Assembly: GCA_030537195.1 (NCBI GenBank)
Contig: JAUNOK010000021.1
Location: forward strand, 1-44,320
Direction: 5' to 3'
DNA from: Eubacteriales bacterium
GTDB lineage: Bacteria; Bacillota; Clostridia; Lachnospirales; Lachnospiraceae
DNA length: 44,320 nt
Below are positions 454 to 19,800 of the stretch, one piece after another. A model generated the notes under the pieces. The model had not been told where the DNA came from and searched no databases. It worked only from the letters and a program-made list of their open reading frames with translations. Numbering within the stretch: the first letter of the stretch is position 1; each line of letters begins with the position of its first letter. Position numbers and translations under genes: made by a program.

Positions 454-3400
454 ATGGTTACTAATTTTGATTATCTAAAAAAAGAACCTAAGTTTTCAGG
501 ATTTGCAAATGTGGCTATTTCTGCCGAAAGAATAATTCTTATGGACCCGGAGGCTAGTATTATTAACAGTCGAAGGGCAATGGAGTTTGCAATAAAGTGG
601 ATGTATTCAGTTGATTCTGCATTGGAGATGCCTTATCAGGATAATTTGTATAGTTTGATGTATACGGATGAATACAGACAGATAGTGGGTCCGGATATAT
701 TAAGAAGAATGGAGTATATCCGCAAATGTGGAAATAACGCAGCGCATGGCACCAAGAAACTAGGAAGAGATGAAGCCATGCTTTGTCTTGAAAATCTGTT
801 TATATTTATAGATTTTATTGCATGTTGTTATTCTGCTGGATATGAAGAACACACATTTGATAAGAATCTGATTAATGCAAGAATAGAAAAAGTTAAGGCT
901 TCAAAAGCAGCAGCTGATACTGTTAATGAAGAACTTGCCAAGATACAGGAAAAGACTGCACAGCAGGAAGTTGACCTTAAGAAATTAATAGAAGAAAATG
1001 CTTCACTTAAAGAGGAATTGTCTGCACGCAGGCGTGAACAGCAACAGACATATGTGCCTAAGCCGCTGGATTTATCTGAATATAAGACAAGAAAATTGTA
1101 TATTGATGCTATGCTTGCTGATGCCGGATGGACAGAGGGCGAAGACTGGCTTAATGAAGTTGAACTTGATGGAATGCCGAATAAATCAGGAACTGGATAT
1201 GCAGATTATGTTCTCTATGATGATATGTATCGGCCATTGGCTGTTATTGAGGCAAAGAGAACCTGTGTAGATGTATCAAAAGGGCGCCAGCAGGCTAAAT
1301 TATATGCAGATATATTAGAAAGAAAATATAAAAGAAGACCAGTGATTTTTCTCACAAATGGTTTTGAAACACATATTATTGATGGACAGTATCCAGAAAG
1401 AAAATGTTCAGTTATTTATTCAAAAAGAGACTTGGAGAAATGGTTCAATCTGTTGACCATGAGGACAAGTCTTAAACACATAACTATAGATAAGAATATT
1501 GCTGGACGATATTATCAGGAGTCAGCAATTAAAGCGGTATGTGATAGTTTTGATGAAAAGAACCGTAGGAAGGCTCTGCTTGTTATGGCAACAGGTTCAG
1601 GTAAAACAAGAACGGTAATTGCGTTGTGTGATGTTTTATTAAAAGCAGGATGGGTAAAGAATATTCTTTTTCTTGCAGACAGGAATTCATTAGTAACCCA
1701 GGCAAAGAGAAGCTTTGTAAATATGCTTCCTAATCTGTCATGCACTAATCTTGTAGAAGAGAAAGACAATTATTCAGCACATTGTGTTTTTTCTACATAT
1801 CAGACAATGATTAGATGTATAGACACAATTAATGACGATAAAGGTAAGCTGTTTACATGTGGACATTTTGACCTTGTTATATGTGATGAAGCACACAGGT
1901 CAATTTATAATAAATATAAAGACATATTTACATATTTTGATGCACCGCTTGTAGGTCTTACGGCGACTCCTAAAGATGAAATAGATAAGAATACTTATGA
2001 AGTATTTGAATTGGAAAAAGGAGTACCTACATATGGGTATGATTTAGCACAGGCAGTTAAAGATGGTTATCTGGTTGATTATGTTTCAGTTGAATCTAAG
2101 TTAAAATTCATTGAACAGGGAATTGTGTATGATGAATTGTCAGAAGAAGACAGAGAAGCATATGAGGAAACATTTGAAGATGAAAACGGAAGACTGCCAG
2201 AGGCAATTGGTTCATCAGCTTTGAATACATGGATATTTAATGAAGATACAATTAAAAAGGTGTTAAATGTCTTAATGGCTGATGGTATTAAGATTGACTA
2301 TGGACAGAAGCTTGGAAAGACTATTATATTTGCAAAGAATCATGATCATGCGGAGAAGATACTGGAGATATTTAATAAAGAATATCCACATTTGCCTGAT
2401 TATGCAAAGGTTATTGATAATTATATGACTTACGCACAGAGTGCTATTGATGAATTTTCTGATGCAAAGAAGATGCCGCAGATAGCAATATCTGTTGATA
2501 TGCTTGATACTGGAATAGATGTGCCAGAGGTAGTTAATCTGGTATTTTTTAAGAAAGTTATGAGTAAAGCCAAATTCTGGCAGATGATAGGAAGAGGCAC
2601 AAGACTTTGTCCCGGACTTTTAGATGGAGAAGATAAGAATAAGTTTTACATATTTGACTTCTGTGGTAATTTTGAGTTTTTCAGAATGAACAATGGAAAA
2701 GCTACAGCTAATATGATTGCATTACAAGGGGCAGTCTTTAATCTGAAATTCGAGATATCATATAAACTTCAGGATATTAAGTATCAGGATGACAGACTGA
2801 TAATGTATAGAAATGCATTAGTTAAGCAGATGAGCGAGAAGGTAAAAGAACTTCCAAGAGATAATTTTGCGGTAAAACAACATTTAAAATATGTTGAATT
2901 ATATTCCGTAGAATCTAATTATCAGACACTTACATATGAGGATACATTAATTGTAAGAGAAGAAGTTGCACCTCTTATATTACCAGAAGAAGATGAGGCA
3001 AGTGCAGTGAGATTTGATGCACTCATGTATGGTATTGAACTGGCACATTTATTAGGAAACAAATATTCAAGAGCACGCAATGACTTATTAAAGAAGACAG
3101 CAGGCGTTGCAGGAGTAGCCAATATTCCAGAGATTCAGGCACAGTCAGATATTATTAATAAAATTCTTAACACCGACTATGTTGATAATGCCGATATTAA
3201 TGATTTTGAAGAAATCAGACAAAGACTTCGTTCATTAATGAAATATCTGCCTCGTGGACCTGTACAGAAATATGAAACTAATTTTACAGACGAGTTACTT
3301 TCAACGGAATGGAGAGAGTCAGAGTTAGAGAATGATGAGTTAAAGAATTACAAAGCTAAGGCTGAGTATTATATCAGACAGCATCAGGATAATATTGTTA

Positions 3401-3801
3401 TTGCAAAGCTTAGGTCTAACAAGCCGTTGACATCAGATGATGTGAAGGCGTTAGAGAATATTCTTTGGGAAGAAGTTGGAACAAAGACTGATTATGAGCA
3501 TGAGGTTGGAACTAAACCTCTGGGAGAATTTGTCCGTGAGATTGTTGGACTTGACATGAATGCAGCAAAGGAAGCATTTTCAGAATATCTGACTAATACT
3601 AATCTTGATAGCAGACAGATATATTTTGTGAATCAGATAGTAGAATATATTGTGCATAATGGAATGATGAAAGATTTCTCAGTATTGCAGGAATCTCCAT
3701 TTACTGATTACGGAAGTATAGTAGATATCTTTACGGACATGACAGTATGGATGGGAATAAAGAAAGTAATTGATACAATAAATGCTAATGCAGCAGCTTA
3801 A
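454..3801 (+). CDS. hsdR: type I restriction-modification enzyme, R (restriction/translocation) subunit
   Basis: This 1115-residue protein is the motor and nuclease subunit of a type I restriction enzyme, which pumps unmodified DNA and cleaves it. An N-terminal DUF4145-like helical region (about 1-135) and a coiled coil (about 140-200) precede the HSDR_N nuclease. Its PD-(D/E)xK signature is visible as D251 and E266-A-K268. The SF2 helicase motor shows Walker A GSGKT (381-385), DEAH (478-481), TAT (503-505) and the motif VI region QMIGRGTR (710-717). The remainder matches the EcoEI-type C-terminal region. AGGGGG 7 nt upstream supports the start. All key residues are intact, so the subunit looks functional. 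The hsdS end just upstream and a probable hsdM outside the window would complete the system. The next gene starts only 28 nt downstream. Confidence 0.93.
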   Translation: MVTNFDYLKKEPKFSGFANVAISAERIILMDPEASIINSRRAMEFAIKWMYSVDSALEMPYQDNLYSLMYTDEYRQIVGPDILRRMEYIRKCGNNAAHGTKKLGRDEAMLCLENLFIFIDFIACCYSAGYEEHTFDKNLINARIEKVKASKAAADTVNEELAKIQEKTAQQEVDLKKLIEENASLKEELSARRREQQQTYVPKPLDLSEYKTRKLYIDAMLADAGWTEGEDWLNEVELDGMPNKSGTGYADYVLYDDMYRPLAVIEAKRTCVDVSKGRQQAKLYADILERKYKRRPVIFLTNGFETHIIDGQYPERKCSVIYSKRDLEKWFNLLTMRTSLKHITIDKNIAGRYYQESAIKAVCDSFDEKNRRKALLVMATGSGKTRTVIALCDVLLKAGWVKNILFLADRNSLVTQAKRSFVNMLPNLSCTNLVEEKDNYSAHCVFSTYQTMIRCIDTINDDKGKLFTCGHFDLVICDEAHRSIYNKYKDIFTYFDAPLVGLTATPKDEIDKNTYEVFELEKGVPTYGYDLAQAVKDGYLVDYVSVESKLKFIEQGIVYDELSEEDREAYEETFEDENGRLPEAIGSSALNTWIFNEDTIKKVLNVLMADGIKIDYGQKLGKTIIFAKNHDHAEKILEIFNKEYPHLPDYAKVIDNYMTYAQSAIDEFSDAKKMPQIAISVDMLDTGIDVPEVVNLVFFKKVMSKAKFWQMIGRGTRLCPGLLDGEDKNKFYIFDFCGNFEFFRMNNGKATANMIALQGAVFNLKFEISYKLQDIKYQDDRLIMYRNALVKQMSEKVKELPRDNFAVKQHLKYVELYSVESNYQTLTYEDTLIVREEVAPLILPEEDEASAVRFDALMYGIELAHLLGNKYSRARNDLLKKTAGVAGVANIPEIQAQSDIINKILNTDYVDNADINDFEEIRQRLRSLMKYLPRGPVQKYETNFTDELLSTEWRESELENDELKNYKAKAEYYIRQHQDNIVIAKLRSNKPLTSDDVKALENILWEEVGTKTDYEHEVGTKPLGEFVREIVGLDMNAAKEAFSEYLTNTNLDSRQIYFVNQIVEYIVHNGMMKDFSVLQESPFTDYGSIVDIFTDMTVWMGIKKVIDTINANAAA

Positions 3802-3829: not shown

Positions 3830-6607
3830 ATGAATAAAGTGATAAATAAAACAGGAAGATATATCAGCTTTTTAATATGTCTTTCTCTGTTGATTGCAAT
3901 ATTTATACCGGTTAATACATCAGCTGATGAGTCAGGGGGTCAGACAACCGAAACAGTAAAAGCTGCCTGGTATGAAGATTCGTATCATATTTCTGGAGAG
4001 AATGGTGAAAGAAGAGGATATGCTTATGAATATGAGCAGGCTTTATCTGCTTATACAGGCTGGAACTATGATTACATAAAAGGTGACTGGGGTGAACTGC
4101 TTAAAAAACTCCAGAATGGTGAAATTGACATGATGGCCGCCATATCTTATACAGATGAACGTGCAGAAACAATGTTATTTTCTGAACTTCCAATGGGGAA
4201 TGAGAAGTATTACCTGTATCTTAATCTTGCAAATGTAGATTTTTCTATGGCAGATTTATCAGATCTTAATGGAAAACGAATTGCAGTAATGGAAGAAAGT
4301 ATTCAGGGGACACAGTTTGCACAATGGGAGAACGAGCATAATGTACAGACCCAGCACATTGATGTAGACAGCTTTACACGAGCCAAAGAAATGTCTGATA
4401 ATAAAGAGATTGACGGCGTTATATCAACAGAAACTCCGGCATGGGTAGAAGCTGGAATGTCGGCAGTTGTAAGTATAGGTGGTTCAGATATTTATTATGC
4501 AATTAATAAAAACAGACCGGATTTAAAGAACAAGATTGATAATGCCATGCGTTCAATGGAAAATGATAAACCATTTTATGCGGATGAATTATATGAGCGC
4601 TATCTTGCTACACAGTCTGTTGCAGTTCTTTCAAGTAAGGAAAAGGAATGGATTAAACAGCATGGTGTAATCAGAATAGGATATATTAATAATGATCCGG
4701 GATTTAGTGTCATTAATGATAAAAATGGAAAACCTGAGGGCGTAATAAAAGATTATATTGAACATGCGCAAAACTGTCTTGGCAATCATACACTGGATTT
4801 TGAACTGATTGGATTTGACTCAGAAGCAGAACAGATTCAGGCAATAAAAGATGACAGAATAGATATGATTTTTCATGTCAGCTATAATCCGTATTATGCA
4901 GAGATGAAAGGCTTATCATTGTCTAATATCGTACTTACAATGCCATTGTCAGTTGTTACTTCACATGATTCATTTGACGAAAGTGCAAAAAACAAAGTGG
5001 CAATAGCAAAGAATGACACTGTTTTAAAATCTTATGTTGCATATAATTATCCAACATGGGAAATTGTTGAATGCGATTCGCTTAATGCTGCAAAGAAAAT
5101 GGTATTAAACGGAGAGACAGATTGTTTTGTTGCAAGGTCTGGACAGTCTGCAAAGTATATTAATAACAGAAAGCTTCATACTACATATCTTACACAGGCG
5201 TGCGATGCAGTATTTGCAGTTAATAATGGGGATGAAACTCTGTTATCTATTTTAAATAAGACATTAAAGACAATACAGACATCTAAATTGTCTGGTGCAG
5301 TAAGTGCATATGAAGATTCCTTGCAAAAGGTAACAATTGAGGATTTTATAAAGGATAATATGTTTACGGCTGTAGCGGTATTTATGATATTAGTTATTCT
5401 TATTATGGGAATAATAATTGCTTTATTGAGAAAAGCGCAGAAGGCCATGCAGCTTGCGGAGAATGCAAATGCTGCAAAATCCAATTTCTTATTTAATATG
5501 AGCCATGATATCAGAACGCCAATGAATGCTATATTAGGATATAATGAGTTAATGAAAGAAAATCTTACAGATCCTAAAATGCTAGATTATCAGGAAAAGA
5601 TAGAACAATCAGGGAATCTGTTATTATCAATTATTAATAATGTACTTGATATGGCGCGAATTGAAAGTGGAAAACTATCATTAGATGAGAATTATTCGGA
5701 AGTTGGAGCAGTATTAAATGAAGTATGTGAAGTGTTTGAGATGGAGGCCAGAAAAAAAGGCATATCACTTACATATGAGACAGATGTTAAACACATGCAT
5801 ATTTTATGTGATGATACAAAGGTAAAAGAAATATTTACTAATCTTATAAGTAATGCCGTTAAATATACGTCTTCAGGAGGAAAGGTTGTTTTAAGGACCA
5901 AGGAATTACCTTGCAATAAAGAAGGCTATGTAAGGCTTAAAACAGAGATTACAGATACCGGAATAGGAATGAGTAAAGAGTATCTTCCGTATTTATTTGA
6001 ATCATTTACAAGAGAGCGCAATACTACTACGGGTAAAATAGCGGGAACAGGCCTCGGAATGCCTATTGTGAAAAGGCTGGTTGAACTGATGGGTGGAAGT
6101 ATTGACGTAGAGAGTGAGTTAGGAAAAGGAACTAAATTCACAGTAATTCTCCAGCATAAAATTGCGGATGAAGCCTATTATATAAAGCCAGCAGAAATCT
6201 CAGACGTGACTAAGAAGGAGTTAATCAGAGGAAAGCATGTTCTGCTTGCTGAGGATAATGAGTTAAATGCTGAAATTGCAGTAGCAATATTACAAAATAT
6301 GGGAATAGCTGTTGATTGCGTTGAAGACGGAGTACAATGTGTGGCAAAGATAGAGCAGATGCCAGCAGGTAGTTATGATTTGATTCTTATGGATATTCAG
6401 ATGCCTAATATGGATGGATATAAGGCTACACAGGCGATAAGGCGCTTTTCGGACAAAGATAAGGCGGATATTCCGATTATTGCCATGACGGCTAATGCAT
6501 TTGAAGAGGACAAAAAGATGGCACTTTCTAAGGGCATGAATGGTCATATTGCAAAGCCGATAGATGTTCATAAAATTGAAAAAGTGATTGTTTCGGTTTT
6601 GAAATAG
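3830..6607 (+). CDS. hybrid sensor histidine kinase with two periplasmic solute-binding domains (BvgS/EvgS-like)
   Basis: This 925-residue membrane sensor starts with a signal-anchor segment (about 10-31). Two tandem SBP_bac_3-type domains (about 40-260 and 275-495) would sit outside the cell and bind a small ligand such as an amino acid. A transmembrane helix (about 510-533) leads to a HisKA domain with the phospho-accepting H559 in SHDIRTPMN. A HATPase_c domain follows with DTGIGMS and GTGLGMP boxes. A C-terminal receiver domain carries the phospho-accepting D855 in LMDIQMPNMDG and a late AKP lysine. AGAAGGAG 9 nt upstream supports the start. No separate response regulator is adjacent, so the output partner is unknown. 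The spacing to hsdR (28 nt) and to the nitroreductase (42 nt) suggests shared transcription, although the functions look unrelated. Confidence 0.88.
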   Translation: MNKVINKTGRYISFLICLSLLIAIFIPVNTSADESGGQTTETVKAAWYEDSYHISGENGERRGYAYEYEQALSAYTGWNYDYIKGDWGELLKKLQNGEIDMMAAISYTDERAETMLFSELPMGNEKYYLYLNLANVDFSMADLSDLNGKRIAVMEESIQGTQFAQWENEHNVQTQHIDVDSFTRAKEMSDNKEIDGVISTETPAWVEAGMSAVVSIGGSDIYYAINKNRPDLKNKIDNAMRSMENDKPFYADELYERYLATQSVAVLSSKEKEWIKQHGVIRIGYINNDPGFSVINDKNGKPEGVIKDYIEHAQNCLGNHTLDFELIGFDSEAEQIQAIKDDRIDMIFHVSYNPYYAEMKGLSLSNIVLTMPLSVVTSHDSFDESAKNKVAIAKNDTVLKSYVAYNYPTWEIVECDSLNAAKKMVLNGETDCFVARSGQSAKYINNRKLHTTYLTQACDAVFAVNNGDETLLSILNKTLKTIQTSKLSGAVSAYEDSLQKVTIEDFIKDNMFTAVAVFMILVILIMGIIIALLRKAQKAMQLAENANAAKSNFLFNMSHDIRTPMNAILGYNELMKENLTDPKMLDYQEKIEQSGNLLLSIINNVLDMARIESGKLSLDENYSEVGAVLNEVCEVFEMEARKKGISLTYETDVKHMHILCDDTKVKEIFTNLISNAVKYTSSGGKVVLRTKELPCNKEGYVRLKTEITDTGIGMSKEYLPYLFESFTRERNTTTGKIAGTGLGMPIVKRLVELMGGSIDVESELGKGTKFTVILQHKIADEAYYIKPAEISDVTKKELIRGKHVLLAEDNELNAEIAVAILQNMGIAVDCVEDGVQCVAKIEQMPAGSYDLILMDIQMPNMDGYKATQAIRRFSDKDKADIPIIAMTANAFEEDKKMALSKGMNGHIAKPIDVHKIEKVIVSVLK

Positions 6608-6649: not shown

Positions 6650-7195
6650 ATGGAATTACAGTCAGTAATTGAGAAAAGAAGAAGCATAAGAAATTATAAC
6701 CCAGAGAGAAAAGTTACTAAGGAGCAGCTTGAGGAACTGATTAAAGCAGCGTCATATGCGCCTTCATGGAAGAATTTGCAGACATCAAGATATTACTGTG
6801 TCTTATCTGAAAATGCAGTAAAAGAACTTAGAGAAAAATGTCTTCCTGAATTCAATCAGGCTAATTCAGATGGAGCAGGTGCATATATAGTCACAACATT
6901 TGTAAAAGGAATGGTTGGTTTCGACAAGAATACGGGCAGTCCGGTTAATGAAGCTGGTGACGGCTGGGGTTATTATGACCTTGGTCTGCAGAATGAGAAT
7001 CTGCTTCTTAAAGCTACAGAACTGGGGCTTGATACTCTGGTAATGGGTATAAGAGATAGTGAGGCGTTAAGAGAATTGCTTAATATTCCAGATAGTGAGA
7101 ATGTTGTGTCTGTTATTGCTGTCGGTTATAGGGGACAGGAGCCACCTGAAAGACCTAAGAGAAAAGAGATTGATGTTGTAGCAAAGTTTGTGTAA
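6650..7195 (+). CDS. nitroreductase-family FMN oxidoreductase
   Basis: The protein has 181 residues, normal for short nitroreductase-fold enzymes that reduce substrates with NAD(P)H through FMN. The N-terminus has the family phosphate-binding pattern EKRRSIRNY and then YAPSWKNLQ. The C-terminal half has the hydrophobic core and the VIAVGYRGQEP segment usual in this family. A purine-rich AAAGGAAAAGAGG lies upstream of the ATG. The gene follows the hybrid kinase at 42 nt and is closed by a terminator at 7231, so it looks like the last gene of this run. The physiological substrate cannot be read from the sequence. Confidence 0.85.
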   Translation: MELQSVIEKRRSIRNYNPERKVTKEQLEELIKAASYAPSWKNLQTSRYYCVLSENAVKELREKCLPEFNQANSDGAGAYIVTTFVKGMVGFDKNTGSPVNEAGDGWGYYDLGLQNENLLLKATELGLDTLVMGIRDSEALRELLNIPDSENVVSVIAVGYRGQEPPERPKRKEIDVVAKFV

Positions 7196-13997: not shown

Positions 13998-14095
13998 TTG
14001 CATAAATGCGAATTATAAAAGAAATATAATGCAATAATGCTAATAAGTCAATATAAAATTCGCAAATATGCAATAAATGCTTGCGAAAATGCGAA
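13998..14095. promoter_or_regulatory. three 15-bp operator-like sites in the ftsZ-like/XRE divergent region
   Basis: The site TTGCATAAATGCGAA occurs at 13998-14012. TTGCGAAAATGCGAA lies at 14081-14095, and on the minus strand TTGCATATTTGCGAA lies at 14059-14073. Each variant differs from the first by two bases. The sites are weak dyads (TTGCA/TGCGAA). One overlaps the XRE -35, one is just upstream of the ftsZ-like -35, and one is near its transcription start. This fits shared repression by the adjacent XRE protein, which is an inference. Confidence 0.6.
14023..14051 (-). promoter_or_regulatory. promoter of the ftsZ-like gene
   Basis: On the minus strand TTGACT (14046-14051) and TATATT (14023-14028) are 17 bp apart. 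The start codon at 13980 follows at a normal leader distance. Confidence 0.65.
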
Positions 14096-14150: not shown

Positions 14151-14558
14151 ATGGAATTAGGGCAGAGATTAAAAGCAAAAAGAAAAGAAAAGAAAATATC
14201 AGCAGAATATATTGCAAAGGAATTAGGCGTGTCAGTATCTACAGTTTACAGATATGAGGATTCAAGTATAGTTAAGATTCCTGTTTCAACATTTGAAAAA
14301 ATGTGTAGTATTCTTGGAACTACGCCAGCAGAGATGATGGGTAATGTACCAGAAATGTCACATGAAAAAAGTGATAATGAGAACAAGCTACCAGGAACAT
14401 TTGAAGATCCGAAGGAAGCAATGGAATTCCTGCTTAAGCTTCCGACAATTGCTGCGTATGGAGGATATGATCCATCTAAGATGGATGATGAAACAATGGT
14501 TGCATTTGCGAATGAAATCTTACAGCAGTTACAGCTTGTGAGTTATAAGTACAGGTAG
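14151..14558 (+). CDS. XRE-family helix-turn-helix regulator
   Basis: The 135-residue protein has a Cro/CI-type HTH at its N-terminus (about 1-60): LGQRLKAKRKEKKISAEYIA, then LGVSVSTVYRYE as turn and recognition helix, then VSTFEKMCSILGTTPAEMM. The remaining part (about 80-135) is an acidic region without a recognised domain, possibly for dimerisation or for recognition by the peptidase encoded next. An ImmA/IrrE gene starts 8 nt downstream, the classic pair in which the peptidase inactivates the repressor. Its promoter overlaps an operator-like site, so autorepression is likely. Confidence 0.85.
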   Translation: MELGQRLKAKRKEKKISAEYIAKELGVSVSTVYRYEDSSIVKIPVSTFEKMCSILGTTPAEMMGNVPEMSHEKSDNENKLPGTFEDPKEAMEFLLKLPTIAAYGGYDPSKMDDETMVAFANEILQQLQLVSYKYR

Positions 14559-14566
14559 GTGACAGT

Positions 14567-14995
14567 ATGAAAGCCAAAGATATAAAGAAGCTGGCAGAAG
14601 ATTTAAGGGAGAATTATAATACAAGGAATCCTTTTGAATTAGCGGAAAAGTACGGAATAAGGGTGGTTGTAAGTAAAATGCTTCCGATTGACAGAAAAGC
14701 ATATACCATAAGGTCAGACAATTATCCAACAATTATAATTATTAATGGCAGATATGAGCATAGAAGCCAGCTGGCATTGTGTGCACATGAACTGGGGCAT
14801 GCACTGCTTCATTCAGATGATATTAATAATTTCGCAGTAACAAGTAAAAATGCATTTAAAAATGTTGAATATGAGGCTAATCTTTTTGCTGTATCGCTGT
14901 TATTTAATGAGAGTGATTTTAATATGAAATTGTTAAATATGAGCAATTATCTGCTTAAGCAGGTACTTGATTATAATATTGTAGTTGAAGATTAG
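14567..14995 (+). CDS. ImmA/IrrE-family zinc metallopeptidase
   Basis: The 142-residue protein carries the zinc-binding HExxH motif as H74-E-L-G-H78 in CAHELGHALLH. The downstream acidic region YEANLFAVSLLF supplies the usual third-ligand glutamate context. ImmA-type enzymes cleave a partner XRE repressor after a damage or stress signal, which derepresses mobile or defence genes. The partner here is most likely the XRE protein encoded 8 nt upstream. The next gene begins 10 nt after the stop, so the three genes form one transcript. Confidence 0.85.
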   Translation: MKAKDIKKLAEDLRENYNTRNPFELAEKYGIRVVVSKMLPIDRKAYTIRSDNYPTIIIINGRYEHRSQLALCAHELGHALLHSDDINNFAVTSKNAFKNVEYEANLFAVSLLFNESDFNMKLLNMSNYLLKQVLDYNIVVED

Positions 14996-15005
14996 GGGAA
15001 GATAT

Positions 15006-16043
15006 ATGTATGAGGTAATGCCGAAAAAACTGCTGGTTGTTAATATACTTGATATTCTTAACAAATATTCAGATGCAGACCACAGATTGAAACAGAAAGA
15101 TTTTATTGATATTCTTAGAAAAGAATATGGTATGGAAGTAGACAGGAAAGCTGTAAGAAGGAATCTGTCGTATCTGCTGGAATGTGGTTATGATATTGAA
15201 TATACAGAACAGGTAAGAACTAAAAAGAATGGGGAGCAGGAAACTATATATACAGACTGGTATATAGAGAGAACATTTAGTAATTCAGAGTTGAGGCTTC
15301 TCATAGACAGCCTCCTTTTTTCAAAATCAATTCCATATAAACAGTGCACTGAACTTATTGAGAAACTGGAAAGCCTGTCAAACTGTTATTTTAAGTCAAG
15401 TGTGAAGCATATATGTAATCTGCAGGAAAATCCACTTGTTAATAAACAGTTATTTTACAATATAGAGATATTGGATGAAGCAATAAGCAAAGGAAAACAG
15501 GTAAAGTTTCGTTATAACTATTATGACATGGATTATAAGCTTCATAACAGATGTAATAGTGAAGGGGTACCAAGGGAATATATAATTAATCCATATCAGA
15601 TGGTTGCGACAAACGGAAGATATTATCTTATATGTAATTATGACAAATATGATAACTATGCTAATTACAGGATTGACTGGATAACAGATATTGAACTTCT
15701 TGGTACTAAGAGAAAATCAATGAAGAAGGTTAAAGGGCTGGAGAATGGTCTGAATTTGTCAAAGCATATGGCGGATCATATATACATGTTCTCAGGTGAT
15801 AGCGGGATAGTCCGTTTCAGGGCATATCGTTATATTATATCTGAGCTTCTGGACTGGTTTGGTAAAGATATCAAATTTGCTGATTATTCAGAAGATGAGG
15901 TAATGGTAACGGTTCATGCTAATCTTATGGCTATGAGATGCTTTGCAACACAATATGCAAGACATATTAGAATTGTAAGCCCTGAGAATCTGGTCGAACA
16001 GGTTGTTGATGACTTGAGACATGCGTTAAAGCGATATGAATAG
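15006..16043 (+). CDS. WYL-domain transcriptional regulator (YafY/CapW/BrxR-type architecture)
   Basis: The protein has 345 residues. A winged-helix N-terminus (LLVVNILDILNKYSDADHRL, then a recognition region VDRKAVRRNLSYLL) is followed by a WYL domain (about 165-250: EAISKGKQVKFRYN, INPYQMVATNGRYYLI, NYRIDWITDIELL) and a WCX-like C-terminal region. Proteins of this layout often repress defence operons and sense nucleic-acid or nucleotide ligands through WYL. I chose 15006 because AGGGG lies 7-8 nt upstream; an ATG at 14985 overlaps immA, and MPKKL at 15018 is another option. It is followed at 19 nt by the EVE/nuclease-like gene, a likely target of its control. Confidence 0.82.
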   Translation: MYEVMPKKLLVVNILDILNKYSDADHRLKQKDFIDILRKEYGMEVDRKAVRRNLSYLLECGYDIEYTEQVRTKKNGEQETIYTDWYIERTFSNSELRLLIDSLLFSKSIPYKQCTELIEKLESLSNCYFKSSVKHICNLQENPLVNKQLFYNIEILDEAISKGKQVKFRYNYYDMDYKLHNRCNSEGVPREYIINPYQMVATNGRYYLICNYDKYDNYANYRIDWITDIELLGTKRKSMKKVKGLENGLNLSKHMADHIYMFSGDSGIVRFRAYRYIISELLDWFGKDIKFADYSEDEVMVTVHANLMAMRCFATQYARHIRIVSPENLVEQVVDDLRHALKRYE

Positions 16044-16062
16044 AATACAGGAGGATTAAGTT

Positions 16063-17073
16063 ATGGAAGTATGGAGATTGCAGGTGAATACAGGAGAAGA
16101 TAACATTGCAGATTATTGTATAGAAAATAATGTTGCTGCAATGGGATGGAGTTTAAAAGAGTTACCCGAAAGTGAAAGAAAAAACATAAAAAATATAAAA
16201 ACTTTTGAGGATTATTGTAAATATGCGGATAAGGTATACAAAAGTTATGCGAGTGTCAAAAGATTAAAAGAGCAGGTTAAAGAGAATGATATTATATGGA
16301 TGCATTCTAGGAAAGAAGGAAAGTATTATTTTGGAAGGGTAAAAAAGGAAAGCAAATGGATCTTTAATAGTGAAGCTGCTGAAAAAAAGGACGCAGGTAA
16401 CCAATTAACAAATATAGATTGGTATGAAGCATCAACAAGAGCCGATGAAGAATCTGTGCCGGGAGCTATAGCAACTGCGTTCATAAAGGGTTCAACTTTA
16501 CAAAGAATTAATAAAGATGGCGTAAAAGAGTATAGCCAGATGCTATATAACAAAATACATGACCCGGAAAAAGAACAATTTACATATGAAAAACCTAATT
16601 TATGTTTAGATAAACATTTTTATATGTTATTGAGTCCATCAGATGTGGAGGATTTGCTGGCACTGTGGCTTTATGCTGAAAAGGGATATGTTTGTATTCC
16701 ATCAACCAATAAAATTGCAACAGCTAAATATGAGTGTGTTCTTGTTGACCCTGACAAGAAAATAAAGAAAAGAAAACATATATATATTCAGGTAAAGAAG
16801 GGAAAAGTGGATTTGAAAGCATCTGAATATGTAAATCTGGCAAAGGATGGAAATGAAGTATATCTGCTGACAACAGAAGGTATAGTAGAAGATGCAGATA
16901 AGTACAAAAATATTACTGCAGTTAATCCGGATAAGATATATAAGTTTGCAACAGCTCCTGAATATAATGGAGTTAATGAAGTTATTCCAAAAAATATTAT
17001 TCCAGAACATGTATTGTATTGGATAGAATTTTTATCGGAAATTGAAGAATCTAATAAAACTGATAATAACTAA
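16063..17073 (+). CDS. putative modification-dependent nuclease: EVE/PUA-like N-terminus plus PD-(D/E)xK-like C-terminus
   Basis: I do not recognise a named family for all 336 residues. The N-terminus (MEVWRLQVNTGEDNIADYC, then NVAAMGWSL) looks like the EVE/PUA-related module found at the front of Mrr- and McrB-type restriction proteins, which recognises altered bases. KENDIIWMHSRKEGKYYFGRV continues that fold as two motifs around IIWMH and YYFGRV. The C-terminal part (about 190-300) resembles an Mrr-like nuclease: ALWLYAEKGYVCIPST, E224, D229 and the Q243-V-K245 strand, with Q in place of the acidic residue as in Mrr. AGGAGG lies upstream. The gene sits between a WYL regulator and an AAA+ ATPase. 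Domain calls are pattern reading and need a profile search. Confidence 0.5.
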   Translation: MEVWRLQVNTGEDNIADYCIENNVAAMGWSLKELPESERKNIKNIKTFEDYCKYADKVYKSYASVKRLKEQVKENDIIWMHSRKEGKYYFGRVKKESKWIFNSEAAEKKDAGNQLTNIDWYEASTRADEESVPGAIATAFIKGSTLQRINKDGVKEYSQMLYNKIHDPEKEQFTYEKPNLCLDKHFYMLLSPSDVEDLLALWLYAEKGYVCIPSTNKIATAKYECVLVDPDKKIKKRKHIYIQVKKGKVDLKASEYVNLAKDGNEVYLLTTEGIVEDADKYKNITAVNPDKIYKFATAPEYNGVNEVIPKNIIPEHVLYWIEFLSEIEESNKTDNN

Positions 17074-17096
17074 GAAAGATTCATGTACCAATATAG

Positions 17097-17160
17097 TCCC
17101 ACACCTTTTATATAATTAATAATAGATACGAAAGTTATTAACTATGGGAAAGGTGTGGGA
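17097..17160 (+). promoter_or_regulatory. long hairpin enclosing the ribosome binding site of the AAA+ gene
   Basis: TCCCACACCTTT (17097-17108) is the perfect complement of AAAGGTGTGGGA (17149-17160), and an inner pair TTAATAA (17116-17122)/TTATTAA (17135-17141) extends the fold. The right arm ends 2 nt before the ATG at 17163, and the only good ribosome binding site (AAAGG, 17149-17153) lies in that arm. In RNA the site would be sealed; on DNA the repeat could instead be an operator. Confidence 0.65.
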
Positions 17161-17162
17161 TT

Positions 17163-19190
17163 ATGTTATTTTATGAGGCATCTGCCAGAATTCAAAGTTG
17201 TAGAATTGTAGAAAAATATCTGAAAAATAGTAATGGTGAACGAAGCAGCCATGAACAGGATGAAAGAATCTGGTGTGAGCTTGAGGATTGTGCAATAGAG
17301 TATTCGGGTGAGCATGAGTATAAGATTGTTGTATTTGTGTGTTATATAGATACGGATATATCTAATGGAAGAGTAGAATTCAGGGTTATTTCTAATAATT
17401 ATAAGGAAAATGCAGCGGAGCACATATATGGCTATATCGAAAAATGCGGTATGAAAATATATGATTTTAATATTCGAGAGACTACATATGACCGGGTTAA
17501 TAAGATGGAAGACAGACTATTTCATCTGGATTATGAAGTTGTAGACAGATTTTTTAGCTGCGATTTTATGAAGAGCGGAGAAAGAAGAAAGAAATGTTGT
17601 GAAATATATGTAGACACCAACATTTTAAAGAAACAGCTATATGACAGGGCAGTAAAGCTTAATTGTTCAGAAACACTGCTTCCGGAATTGGAAAGGATAT
17701 TTGTTAACAGGAATACTACTAATTATCTGGGAAATCCGGTGCAATACATAATAACCTGCAGCAGGAACAGTGTCGGATATGAAATCGCGAAAGTCATAAT
17801 AGCAGCATTGTATAAGCAAAACAGGTTAAGAAGCAGCCGAATATGGATATCGGGATTGCTGTCAGACCAGAATGAATCGTATGGATATTCGTATTGTGAG
17901 GCATCAAGTGTAGGAATTGTTATTCCTGATATGAAAGATGTTGATGATGAATACGATAAGAACAGATTGCGCAAGGCAGCAGATAGAATTGGGCTGATGA
18001 TAGAAGAGTATTCGTCAAATGTACTGACATTTGTATTTGTCAGACGAGGCAATGAACGAATTAAGGAATTGATAAAAGATAGTGCCCACAACATTAATTT
18101 TTGTGAAATAAGACAGAACACATATATTGGAGCCCAAGCCAGAGAATATATAAAAAGAGATTTAATAGATAAAGGTATAGATGAATCTGTTGCAGATAAA
18201 ATAGATTTAGCGGACGACATAGAATATTATCCGGATGAACTAAATGCAAGAATACATAAATGCCTGGGAAATATTCTGTGTACAGATATATATTCACAGT
18301 ATGCAGATTATGAGATAAAGCATGTGGAACGGATTAAGGAAAGAGAAGGAAATGCATATCTTGAACTTAAATCTATGATAGGTCTTAATAACCCTAAAAA
18401 CATTATAGATAAGATTATAAGTTATTATAATACAAGAAAAATATATCGTGCGAATGGAATCGAACCACCGTTGAGTGCTGTACATATGGTATTTACAGGT
18501 AATCCGGGTACTGCAAAGACAACAGTTGCGAGGTTATTTGCAGACATTTTAAGAGACAATAAAATACTGCCAGAGGGAACTTTAATAGAGGCTGGGAGAA
18601 GTGATCTTGTCGGGGAATATGTAGGACAGACAGCTCCCAAGGTCAAAAGTCTTTTCAGAAGGGCTAAGGGAAATGTGTTGTTTATAGATGAAGCCTATTC
18701 TCTTGTAGATGGCAGAAGAGGATTATATGGAGATGAGGCAATTAATACTCTCGTTCAGGAGATGGAGAATAACAGGGAGGATACTATTGTTATTCTTGCC
18801 GGATACCCTGATAAAATGCAGCAATTTCTTGATACCAATCCAGGGCTTACGAGCAGGATAGCATTTCATATTAATTTTGATGATTATACGGAAGAAGAAT
18901 TATATGAAATACTGATATCTATGGCATCAAAATCAGGGGTGAGATTATCTGATGAAGTGCATGAAAAAGTTATTGAAATATTCGGACATGCATGTAAGCA
19001 TAAGGATTTTGGAAATGGCCGTTTTGTAAGAAATATATATGAACAGGCATTAATGAATCAGACATTAAGAATAGCAAAAAGTACAGGACAGCCTTCGGAA
19101 AAAGAGCTGAGAACATTAGAAGCCGAGGATTTTAATAATCTGGAAGTTAAAGAAACATCCGAGAAAGAAGGCAGAGTAATTGGATTTTAA
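17163..19190 (+). CDS. CbxX/CfqX (SpoVK)-type AAA+ ATPase with a large variant N-terminal half
   Basis: The C-terminal 280 residues of this 675-residue protein are a CbbX/SpoVK-type AAA+ module: MIGLNNPKNIIDKI, Walker A G446-NPGTAKT453, the LVGEYVGQTAPKV pore-loop region, Walker B FIDEAYSL with D509-E510, and GLTSRIAFH holding the arginine-finger region. Such ATPases remodel protein partners. The first 400 residues have no domain I can name. Residues around 195-270 (VQYIITCSRNSVGYEIAKVI, then GIVIPDMKDVDDE) look like a second AAA module that lost its nucleotide loop. The next gene overlaps by 11 nt, so the two products probably act together. An inverted repeat covers its ribosome binding site. 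Confidence 0.75.
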   Translation: MLFYEASARIQSCRIVEKYLKNSNGERSSHEQDERIWCELEDCAIEYSGEHEYKIVVFVCYIDTDISNGRVEFRVISNNYKENAAEHIYGYIEKCGMKIYDFNIRETTYDRVNKMEDRLFHLDYEVVDRFFSCDFMKSGERRKKCCEIYVDTNILKKQLYDRAVKLNCSETLLPELERIFVNRNTTNYLGNPVQYIITCSRNSVGYEIAKVIIAALYKQNRLRSSRIWISGLLSDQNESYGYSYCEASSVGIVIPDMKDVDDEYDKNRLRKAADRIGLMIEEYSSNVLTFVFVRRGNERIKELIKDSAHNINFCEIRQNTYIGAQAREYIKRDLIDKGIDESVADKIDLADDIEYYPDELNARIHKCLGNILCTDIYSQYADYEIKHVERIKEREGNAYLELKSMIGLNNPKNIIDKIISYYNTRKIYRANGIEPPLSAVHMVFTGNPGTAKTTVARLFADILRDNKILPEGTLIEAGRSDLVGEYVGQTAPKVKSLFRRAKGNVLFIDEAYSLVDGRRGLYGDEAINTLVQEMENNREDTIVILAGYPDKMQQFLDTNPGLTSRIAFHINFDDYTEEELYEILISMASKSGVRLSDEVHEKVIEIFGHACKHKDFGNGRFVRNIYEQALMNQTLRIAKSTGQPSEKELRTLEAEDFNNLEVKETSEKEGRVIGF

Positions 19191-19800
19191 TGTAATGGAT
19201 AATGTTATGGAAGCATATAACTGGCAATTAGCACAAATGTGGTTAGGTAAAATCAAAGACATTATTGAACCGGGAAAGATATATGTAACCAATAATATTA
19301 AGGGATATGGACGATATGATACATTTGGAATGCTGGCGGATTATTTGATAATGAAAGGGCATAAGGCTGTGCTATATATGTGTTCAAATCATAAAGCAAA
19401 GGAGGTGCAAAACAACATATTACAAAGAATAGAAACACATATGTATGAACAGGCTTTTGCATGTGATAATGAAGAAAGGAGGTTTGACGAGATATGTGAA
19501 AAGGCTCATAAATTATTAGAATCACAATATAAAGATATTCATTTTAAAGCTATAGATGATAGAGATGTTGAACTGTTATCAGATGACAACGGGCATAATA
19601 AATATAATGTTATTCTAATAGAACATTTCAGGCTTTTGCAGGGCAGACACACCACATGCAAAAGCATGAGTCAGGAGTTGTATAAATATTGTGTACAGTA
19701 TCTTCATGATATGGCAAAAAAATATGGATATGTGGTTATTGTTGGCATGAACATTAATAACACGGAAGAATGGCTGAATAACTGGCTGGAAAAGATTTAA
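19180..19800 (+). CDS. unknown protein resembling a DnaB/RecA-like ATPase without Walker A
   Basis: The 206-residue protein has no family I can name. Its layout follows a DnaB C-terminal ATPase: PGKIYVTNNIKGYGRYDTF stands where GDLIVIAGRPSMGKT-type P-loops lie, but the GKT/S is absent. VILIEHFRLLQG matches the Walker B style VIDYLQLM, and MAKKYGYVVIVGMNIN matches the strand before the DnaB L-loop. It would then be a non-hydrolysing partner of the AAA+ ATPase, whose gene it overlaps by 11 nt. I chose a TTG start at 19180, because AAGAAGG lies 8 nt upstream; an ATG at 19195 is the alternative. The function is inferred only from fold resemblance. Confidence 0.5.
   Translation: MDFNVMDNVMEAYNWQLAQMWLGKIKDIIEPGKIYVTNNIKGYGRYDTFGMLADYLIMKGHKAVLYMCSNHKAKEVQNNILQRIETHMYEQAFACDNEERRFDEICEKAHKLLESQYKDIHFKAIDDRDVELLSDDNGHNKYNVILIEHFRLLQGRHTTCKSMSQELYKYCVQYLHDMAKKYGYVVIVGMNINNTEEWLNNWLEKI

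Follow-up and report, generated by a model that had tools for sequence, protein, structure and literature searches.

A divergent FtsZ paralogue with XRE–ImmA genes beside a separately conserved WYL, nuclease-like and AAA+ gene set in Lachnospira

FtsZ lies at the heart of the bacterial division machinery. XRE-family proteins repress and ImmA peptidases relieve that repression; in ICEBs1, for example, ImmA removes the repressor ImmR. In RosmerTA toxin–antitoxin (TA) systems, helix-turn-helix (HTH)–ImmA antitoxins (RmrA) occur with varied RmrT toxins, and the same source reports toxFtsL, a Panacea TA toxin related to a divisome protein, which was shown experimentally to delocalise FtsZ (PMC10440598). 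Nucleoside triphosphate (NTP)-dependent conflict systems, centred on MoxR–vWA or GTPase components, are described as having rare FtsZ/tubulin members (PMC7159879), and FtsZ is a phage target, sensed via Gp0.4 by CapRel (PMC13423816). Here we describe a locus in a 44,320-nucleotide stretch of DNA (the window, the entire contig C19, JAUNOK010000021.1, of genome G000, a gut Eubacteriales bacterium of the Lachnospiraceae, assembly GCA_030537195.1), in which a second ftsZ gene (ftsZ2) is transcribed divergently from an xre–immA pair followed by genes for a WYL regulator, a PDC-S02 protein, an AAA+ protein and a small accessory protein. We propose, with a probability of about 0.62, that the locus consists of two separately conserved units, A (ftsZ2, xre, immA) and B (WYL, nuclease-like gene, AAA+), and that an XRE–ImmA switch would hold FtsZ2 off until a signal arrives, whereupon FtsZ2 would alter division.

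XRE–ImmA accompanies a divergent FtsZ

The initial annotation had grouped six co-directional open reading frames (ORFs), beginning with xre, into one conflict module in which XRE–ImmA and WYL formed two layers of repression over one gene set. All six ORFs are present where it placed them (Table 1), and ftsZ2, which it omitted, adjoins them on the other strand. Searches covered samples of 22 genus, 397 family, 201 class and 398 phylum genomes. At E ≤ 1e-15, XRE was detected in 5 of the 397 family genomes, in each case with a divergent FtsZ paralogue beside it and ImmA behind it (in G400 the xre frame was visible in the XRE search and had no entry in the ORF table of the locus). The same arrangement was found in G002, in G012 and on contig C23 of Butyrivibrio MB2005, with repressor and HExxH peptidase in tandem and HELGH in all eight ImmA proteins. 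Outside Lachnospira, unit A occurs in four genomes of other genera and in MB2005, with FtsZ identities of 42–50%. Across these five loci (L143 and L150–L153; 12–19.5 kb read, the L150 contig ending ~290 bp behind ImmA), WYL, PDC-S02, AAA+ and FtsH-like genes were absent without exception, which lends no support to two layers of repression over one gene set. Together, these results indicate that XRE–ImmA belongs with the divergent ftsZ2 rather than with WYL.

This linkage bears on the reading of the six ORFs as a single defence operon, in which both repression layers would control a modified-DNA-reading nuclease and an AAA+ pair that cut invading DNA. In favour of it, G000 and G002 have all of these genes side by side in one direction, and G012 has a part of them. 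Because XRE–ImmA accompanies ftsZ2 and not WYL in the loci read elsewhere, we reject a single six-gene system as improbable.

Scans of viral contigs for XRE, FtsZ2 and WYL, made with a narrow pattern method (two short patterns for FtsZ2), returned no relative that would point to a phage origin. FtsZ matches were present in 24 phage records and XRE matches in 4, with no overlap, and 114 plasmid records held FtsZ relatives. Genes observed near FtsZ2 units include those for a YobI-like P-loop NTPase (L153 11632–15360, in G384) and a Uma2 putative nuclease (L151 11269–12111, in G083).

FtsZ2 keeps Z-ring features

G000 has another ftsZ gene on contig C36, which rules out FtsZ2 as the sole FtsZ of the genome. 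In the genus sample of 22, intact second copies of this FtsZ were confined to G000, G002 and G012; G017 keeps a remnant of 44 codons, G006 shows a 31% match at 6e-8 and G011 has two fragments. MB2005 has three FtsZ genes, one in a division-gene cluster (assigned by eye), one in the XRE–ImmA arrangement and one beside a PDC-S02–WYL locus. In a phylogenetic tree, the eight FtsZ2 sequences form one side of a branch with support of 100/99, opposite 19 main FtsZ sequences together with the third FtsZ of Butyrivibrio. The tree has several long end branches, joins between which may be false, and its bootstrap had not fully settled. The FtsZ2 branch spans five genera by tool labels and a Butyrivibrio genome. 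The third MB2005 FtsZ (L014 13600–14568), which lies outside the FtsZ2 clade, has 322 amino acids and no C-terminal peptide, and its gene is adjoined by genes for PDC-S02, WYL, a DEDDh exonuclease and an FtsH-like AAA protease.

All eight FtsZ2 proteins carry the features that define the FtsZ family: a Tubulin/FtsZ GTPase domain, the GGGTG[TS]G signature, the catalytic T7 loop (N.DFND; NLDFND in the window) and an IPxFL-type C-terminal peptide ([IV]P.FL; IPAFLQSRMKK in the window). They differ from main FtsZ by 19 near-fixed differences (one being the start residue), six of which fall at residues 203–222, presumably the surroundings of helix H7 and the T7 loop. The H7/T7 region of FtsZ is a contact site between filament subunits. 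In the class sample, the FtsZ2 profile scored the window gene at 634 bits and the remaining above-threshold matches at 420–449 bits, within or just below the 428–462 bits that main FtsZ proteins reach when scored locally with this profile. The FtsZ2 of G384, when held out, scores like main FtsZ and is by profile a less certain member.

Such features also suit an FtsZ2 that serves as a protective spare, in the form of a variant that escapes binding by an inhibitor, or as a decoy; XRE–ImmA would release it once phage or stress proteins have disabled the main FtsZ, so that division resumes or a guard is triggered. Its polymer and tail features are intact in all eight proteins and under purifying selection, and T7 Gp0.4 is described as sequestering FtsZ, with CapRel sensing the Gp0.4–FtsZ complex (PMC13423816). 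Tight operator control of a harmless copy would, on the other hand, seem costly. Phages of Lachnospiraceae are, moreover, not known to us to carry an FtsZ inhibitor. Because FtsZ2 keeps its Z-ring features, toxFtsL and RosmerTA provide precedents and FtsZ is a phage target, we prefer to see FtsZ2 as an inducible effector that would alter division, and consider the spare-copy reading unlikely.

Palindromes between ftsZ2 and xre

The gap between ftsZ2 and xre in the window contains four TTGCANNNNTGCAA-like palindromes with spacings of 31, 31 and 21 bp, which are candidate operators; none of 1,000 Markov-sampled shuffles of this gap yielded at least four sites. Two to five similar palindromes are present in seven of the eight ftsZ2–xre gaps, and one in that of G384. 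Promoter-like sites lie on both strands near the palindromes, which is suggestive in placement only, their number in the region being 38, against 38.2 in shuffles. A different operator pattern, WTKCRNNNNYGMAW, was rejected: its frequency did not exceed that in shuffles, and it had no match in the ftsZ2–xre gap.

WYL, AAA+ and nuclease-like genes recur as a second unit

For the WYL gene, we prefer the ATG at 15006 over the TTG at 14985 chosen in the initial annotation, because the [Eubacterium] eligens annotation starts WYL at the equivalent ATG. This leaves a 10-bp gap behind immA, and the overlap of ImmA and WYL is probably a product of the TTG choice. The family sample contained 27 WYL relatives in 23 of 397 genomes; 24 loci were examined, leaving out the three weakest, and partners were counted within 7 kb. 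An AAA+ gene was present in 8 of the 24 (in one case on the opposite strand), a soluble-looking FtsH-like AAA protease in 5 and a Cas4-like/DUF2779 gene alone in 2. Weaker AAA+ relatives adjoin WYL in no fewer than four additional genomes of the family (G147, G172, G341 and G408). The accompanying nuclease-like gene varies, being PDC-S02, DUF2779, PDC-S11-like (in G012), a DEDDh exonuclease or a metallophosphoesterase. Unit B is thus WYL with a nuclease-like gene and AAA+, recurring with swapped nucleases or with an FtsH-like protease in place of AAA+; the proposed co-occurrence of these genes holds, without XRE–ImmA as a part of the set. No WYL operator common to the loci was seen by eye in eight upstream stretches. 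On Selenomonas ruminantium plasmid pSRC1, genes for a NERD protein, the same AAA+ family, a metallophosphoesterase, a hypothetical protein and DUF2779 follow one another (L084 6588–13866), with a WYL gene ~3 kb beyond this row.

Pfam and NCBIfam models confirmed the XRE, ImmA, WYL and AAA labels of the initial annotation. The profile searches that it had called for placed the AAA+ gene, assigned the fourth ORF to PDC-S02 instead of EVE and left the last ORF without a family; the EVE and DnaB labels were not established. The PDC-S02 protein has no Pfam family above cut-off and no match to Pfam EVE (PF01878) up to E 1. The basis for a putative nuclease part is a conserved E...E–QVK motif: of 11 aligned sequences including the window, 10 have E196 and 8 have E224 together with Q243-V-K245. 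The structure model has a mean predicted local distance difference test score (pLDDT) of 72.6, with the C-terminal half better than much of the N-terminal part; the best match of the PDC-S02 profile in the PDB was an antibody at E 0.18.

PDLC04816 was found in 7 of the 398 phylum genomes, the window included, and in the other six WYL and AAA+ were absent from the ~1.5-kb flanks, which further weakens the single-operon explanation, as do the absence of PDC-S02 from G012 and the lack of support for EVE. A scan of genome contigs with PDC-S02 gave two close relatives. One PDC-S02 relative, on a Lactiplantibacillus plasmid, lies between a type I restriction–modification (R-M) system and a SIR2 + DUF87 pair, a setting that would suit a defence operon. 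PDC-S02 proteins at L013 10001–11410 and L014 9986–11377 have an extra C-terminal domain, 34–36% identical to that of the protein that replaces PDC-S02 in G012.

The AAA+ protein matches Pfam AAA and AAA_lid_6, and its best NCBIfam match is stage V sporulation protein K (1.5e-77). The AAA family of the earlier SpoVK-type label is therefore confirmed, and SpoVK itself is not: the equivalog TIGR02881 scores 260.2 bits against a cut-off of 422.95, and the protein, with ~390 residues beyond the AAA domain, does not reach the curated thresholds for SpoVK, CbbX and EccA. Its C-terminal AAA domain matches CbbX (1.9e-83; 3zuh) with 39% identity by Foldseek, and Walker A is present solely in this domain in all 13 aligned AAA+ sequences, the window included. 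The AAA domain looks to be of CbbX/SpoVK type and active, and the middle domain lacks Walker A. Foldseek alignments of the AAA model to tandem AAA proteins span 548–617 columns at a root-mean-square deviation of 25–33 Å, so Foldseek supports the CbbX domain alone and not the fold of the middle domain. The block does not match IetAS, which pairs an IetA ATPase with an IetS subtilisin: the best IetA model match was 1.6e-09, in the AAA part, NF042959 reached 29.7 of 510 bits and no subtilisin family was among the matches of the block. A scan of viral contigs for AAA kept 80 of 83 loci, mostly through the C-terminal AAA part, and WYL and FtsZ were absent from the three loci annotated (L154, L155 and L157). 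The inverted repeat 5′ of the AAA+ gene is kept in G002 and has one arm altered in G012.

For the last gene, the proposed RecA/DnaB relationship is weak: the protein has no Pfam, PADLOC or NCBIfam DnaB match and no GK[TS] in its sequence. By hhalign, DnaB was the best of four profiles compared, at E 0.021 and a probability of 2%, in the Walker B region. The gene matched no family and has a ratio of non-synonymous to synonymous substitution (dN/dS) of 0.47 against G002. Sml compared with the PDB gave a best E of 0.74.

Genomic context and divergence of the units

A near-identical block is present on the 626,744-bp plasmid NC_012780.1 of [Eubacterium] eligens (Lachnospira eligens) ATCC 27750, and the block of G002 has protein identities of 87–98% to that of the window. 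In G012, FtsZ2–XRE–ImmA–WYL–AAA occupies a different site, flanked by 460-bp direct repeats that are 99.6% identical. Each repeat (L011 6494–6953 and 13683–14142) corresponds to a 3′ segment of what, judged by eye, is a GNAT-hydrolase-like gene. Homology between G012 and the window breaks off 3 bp after the stop codon of ftsZ2 at one end and shortly into the last gene at the other, and most of this last gene is missing from G012. A 994-bp block (window 16069–17062) is also absent, and with it PDC-S02, which has thus been gained or lost between these loci; a different nuclease-like gene lies downstream, PDC-S11-like and with a weak EVE match (0.0093), below cut-off. At the same UvrD-side site in G017, the 3′ end of ftsZ2 directly adjoins a residual piece of the last gene.

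The flanks differ among G000, G002 and G012, which, like the near-identical plasmid copy, would be compatible with a chance association of a plasmid-borne spare ftsZ and its regulator with unrelated accessory genes in a variable region. The recurrence of the three-gene arrangement in other genera at such low FtsZ identity and the separate site in G012 make this very unlikely; because G002 has the same block and G012 most of it, we take the gene set to be more than chance.

Between the window and G002, dN/dS is 0.081 for FtsZ2, 0.086 for XRE, 0.059 for ImmA, 0.042 for WYL, 0.126 for PDC-S02 and 0.061 for AAA, and these six genes are under purifying selection. Synonymous divergence between G000 and G002 is 0.48 in ftsZ2, drops to 0.09 in PDC-S02 and is 0.13–0.15 beyond it, a gradient that would be expected if parts had been exchanged. 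Unit A and the AAA+ gene (E ≤ 1e-100), present in 5 and 7 of 397 genomes, overlap in 3 (P = 3.3e-5), and without the window genome in 2, from 4 and 6 of 396 (P = 0.0011). In the overlap genomes other than that of the window (G083 and G400), unit A and AAA+ are on different contigs, and the overlap could also reflect genomes rich in such genes.

Table 1 Features of the ftsZ2–xre–immA–WYL locus in the window
Feature	Coordinates	Strand	Evidence or remarks
ftsZ2, second FtsZ paralogue, 373 aa	12859–13980	-	Pfam Tubulin 5e-47, FtsZ_C 1.5e-15
Four TTGCANNNNTGCAA-like palindromes, candidate XRE operators	13998–14094		Starts 13998, 14029, 14060, 14081; both-strand promoter-like sites
XRE-family repressor	14151–14558	+	Pfam HTH_3 2.7e-10
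ImmA/IrrE-type (M78) metallopeptidase, HELGH	14567–14995	+	Family model 1.3e-13
WYL-domain regulator	15006–16043	+	WYL model 1e-10
PDC-S02 protein: N-terminal domain (fold unproven) and E...E–QVK nuclease-like C-terminal part	16063–17073	+	PADLOC PDLC04816 9.8e-89, residues 1–326
Inverted repeat CCACACC/GGTGTGG, 5′ of the AAA gene	17099–17158		Candidate operator or mRNA hairpin
AAA+ protein: N-terminal domain, middle alpha/beta domain, CbbX/SpoVK-type AAA domain	17163–19190	+	
206-aa accessory protein, possibly DnaB/RecA-like fold without P-loop	19180–19800	+	Weaker constraint

Elsewhere in the window lie an EcoEI-type HsdR-like gene (454–3801) and genes for a hybrid histidine kinase (3830–6607) and a nitroreductase (6650–7195). 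In G012, the neighbouring genes (L011 86–5487) encode a 997-amino-acid protein with partial HsdR similarity, a MazG-like protein of 106 residues and a helicase-like protein of 621 residues (the latter two named by eye), and may constitute another defence-type cluster.

Discussion

The genes and their linkages allow us to propose how the two units might work. In unit A, XRE would bind the palindrome array and repress transcription in both the ftsZ2 and the xre–immA directions. ImmA, triggered for instance by DNA damage or infection, would remove XRE; FtsZ2 would then be made and, with polymer interfaces and C-terminal peptide intact, could join the host Z-ring or compete with it. Division would thereby be changed or stopped, as in toxin–antitoxin or abortive-infection modules. 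In unit B, which by gene content reads as a defence-like set, WYL may regulate an AAA+ remodelling ATPase working with an exchangeable nuclease.

Several observations weigh against this proposal. Four of the eight FtsZ2 were reached through XRE, the search from FtsZ2 to XRE covering the genus genomes and one Butyrivibrio genome, and a further Butyrivibrio FtsZ, outside the FtsZ2 clade, has no XRE–ImmA. The FtsZ2 profile revealed no further clear member in the class sample, and intact GTPase and C-terminal features are equally compatible with a working FtsZ and with a poison. The palindrome pattern was derived from these sequences before its sites were counted; over the whole window it is rarer than expected (23 versus 42.6), with 4 of the 23 in this gap. 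Support from shuffles is moderate in the G002 and G083 gaps (15 and 14 of 1,000), and the count in the G384 gap, reached by 123 of 1,000, is at chance level. For unit B, 9 of the 24 WYL loci have no AAA+, FtsH-like or Cas4-like/DUF2779 gene, 5 of these 9 lying <5 kb from a contig end, and the closest WYL relative among the 24 (G326, 54–56%) has no partner. Last, the P values of the overlap between unit A and AAA+ depend on the threshold, weaker AAA+ relatives being uncounted.

A broader claim, which we advance tentatively and regard as rather less likely than not to hold, is that the locus represents a novel class of module for immunity or stress whose effector would be a full, dedicated FtsZ paralogue: the phage-type XRE–ImmA switch would release FtsZ2 to take over the division machinery, and in Lachnospira this switch would be joined to the WYL ATPase–nuclease set as a mobile two-stage defence cassette. 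If two units with an inducible FtsZ2 are the correct reading, the locus would tie immunity-type regulation directly, and in a testable way, to the division ring, and would correct a grouping suggested by gene order alone.

Comparison with known systems

As the initial annotation had proposed, the genes look conflict-like and match no named system. Among the literature entries listed, no title or abstract opening described a published FtsZ2–XRE–ImmA set. PDC-S02 is a single-gene candidate family in PADLOC, whereas at the loci described here its gene comes and goes between those for WYL and AAA+. The AAA+ protein shares its C-terminal AAA domain with SpoVK, CbbX and EccA and differs from them in its extra residues. 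Like NTP-dependent conflict systems, the locus has an FtsZ/tubulin relative in a conflict setting; the part of that source available to us mentions no pairing with XRE–ImmA (PMC7159879).

Unit A resembles the ImmR–ImmA pair of ICEBs1-type elements in its separate, tandem genes for repressor and peptidase, and differs in having an ftsZ paralogue as the neighbour where such elements have genes for integrase or excision (no systematic search for integrases was made). With toxFtsL it shares a relative of a divisome protein, which there is the toxin; that system involves FtsL rather than FtsZ and a Panacea antitoxin (PMC10440598), and the system described here is known from its genes alone. RosmerTA is similar in that HTH and ImmA adjoin a gene possibly able to arrest growth, and the window ImmA matches the PADLOC RmrA model at 8.5e-17. 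The two are likened by gene content, and they differ in that HTH and ImmA are here two proteins, with a whole divergent FtsZ as their partner.

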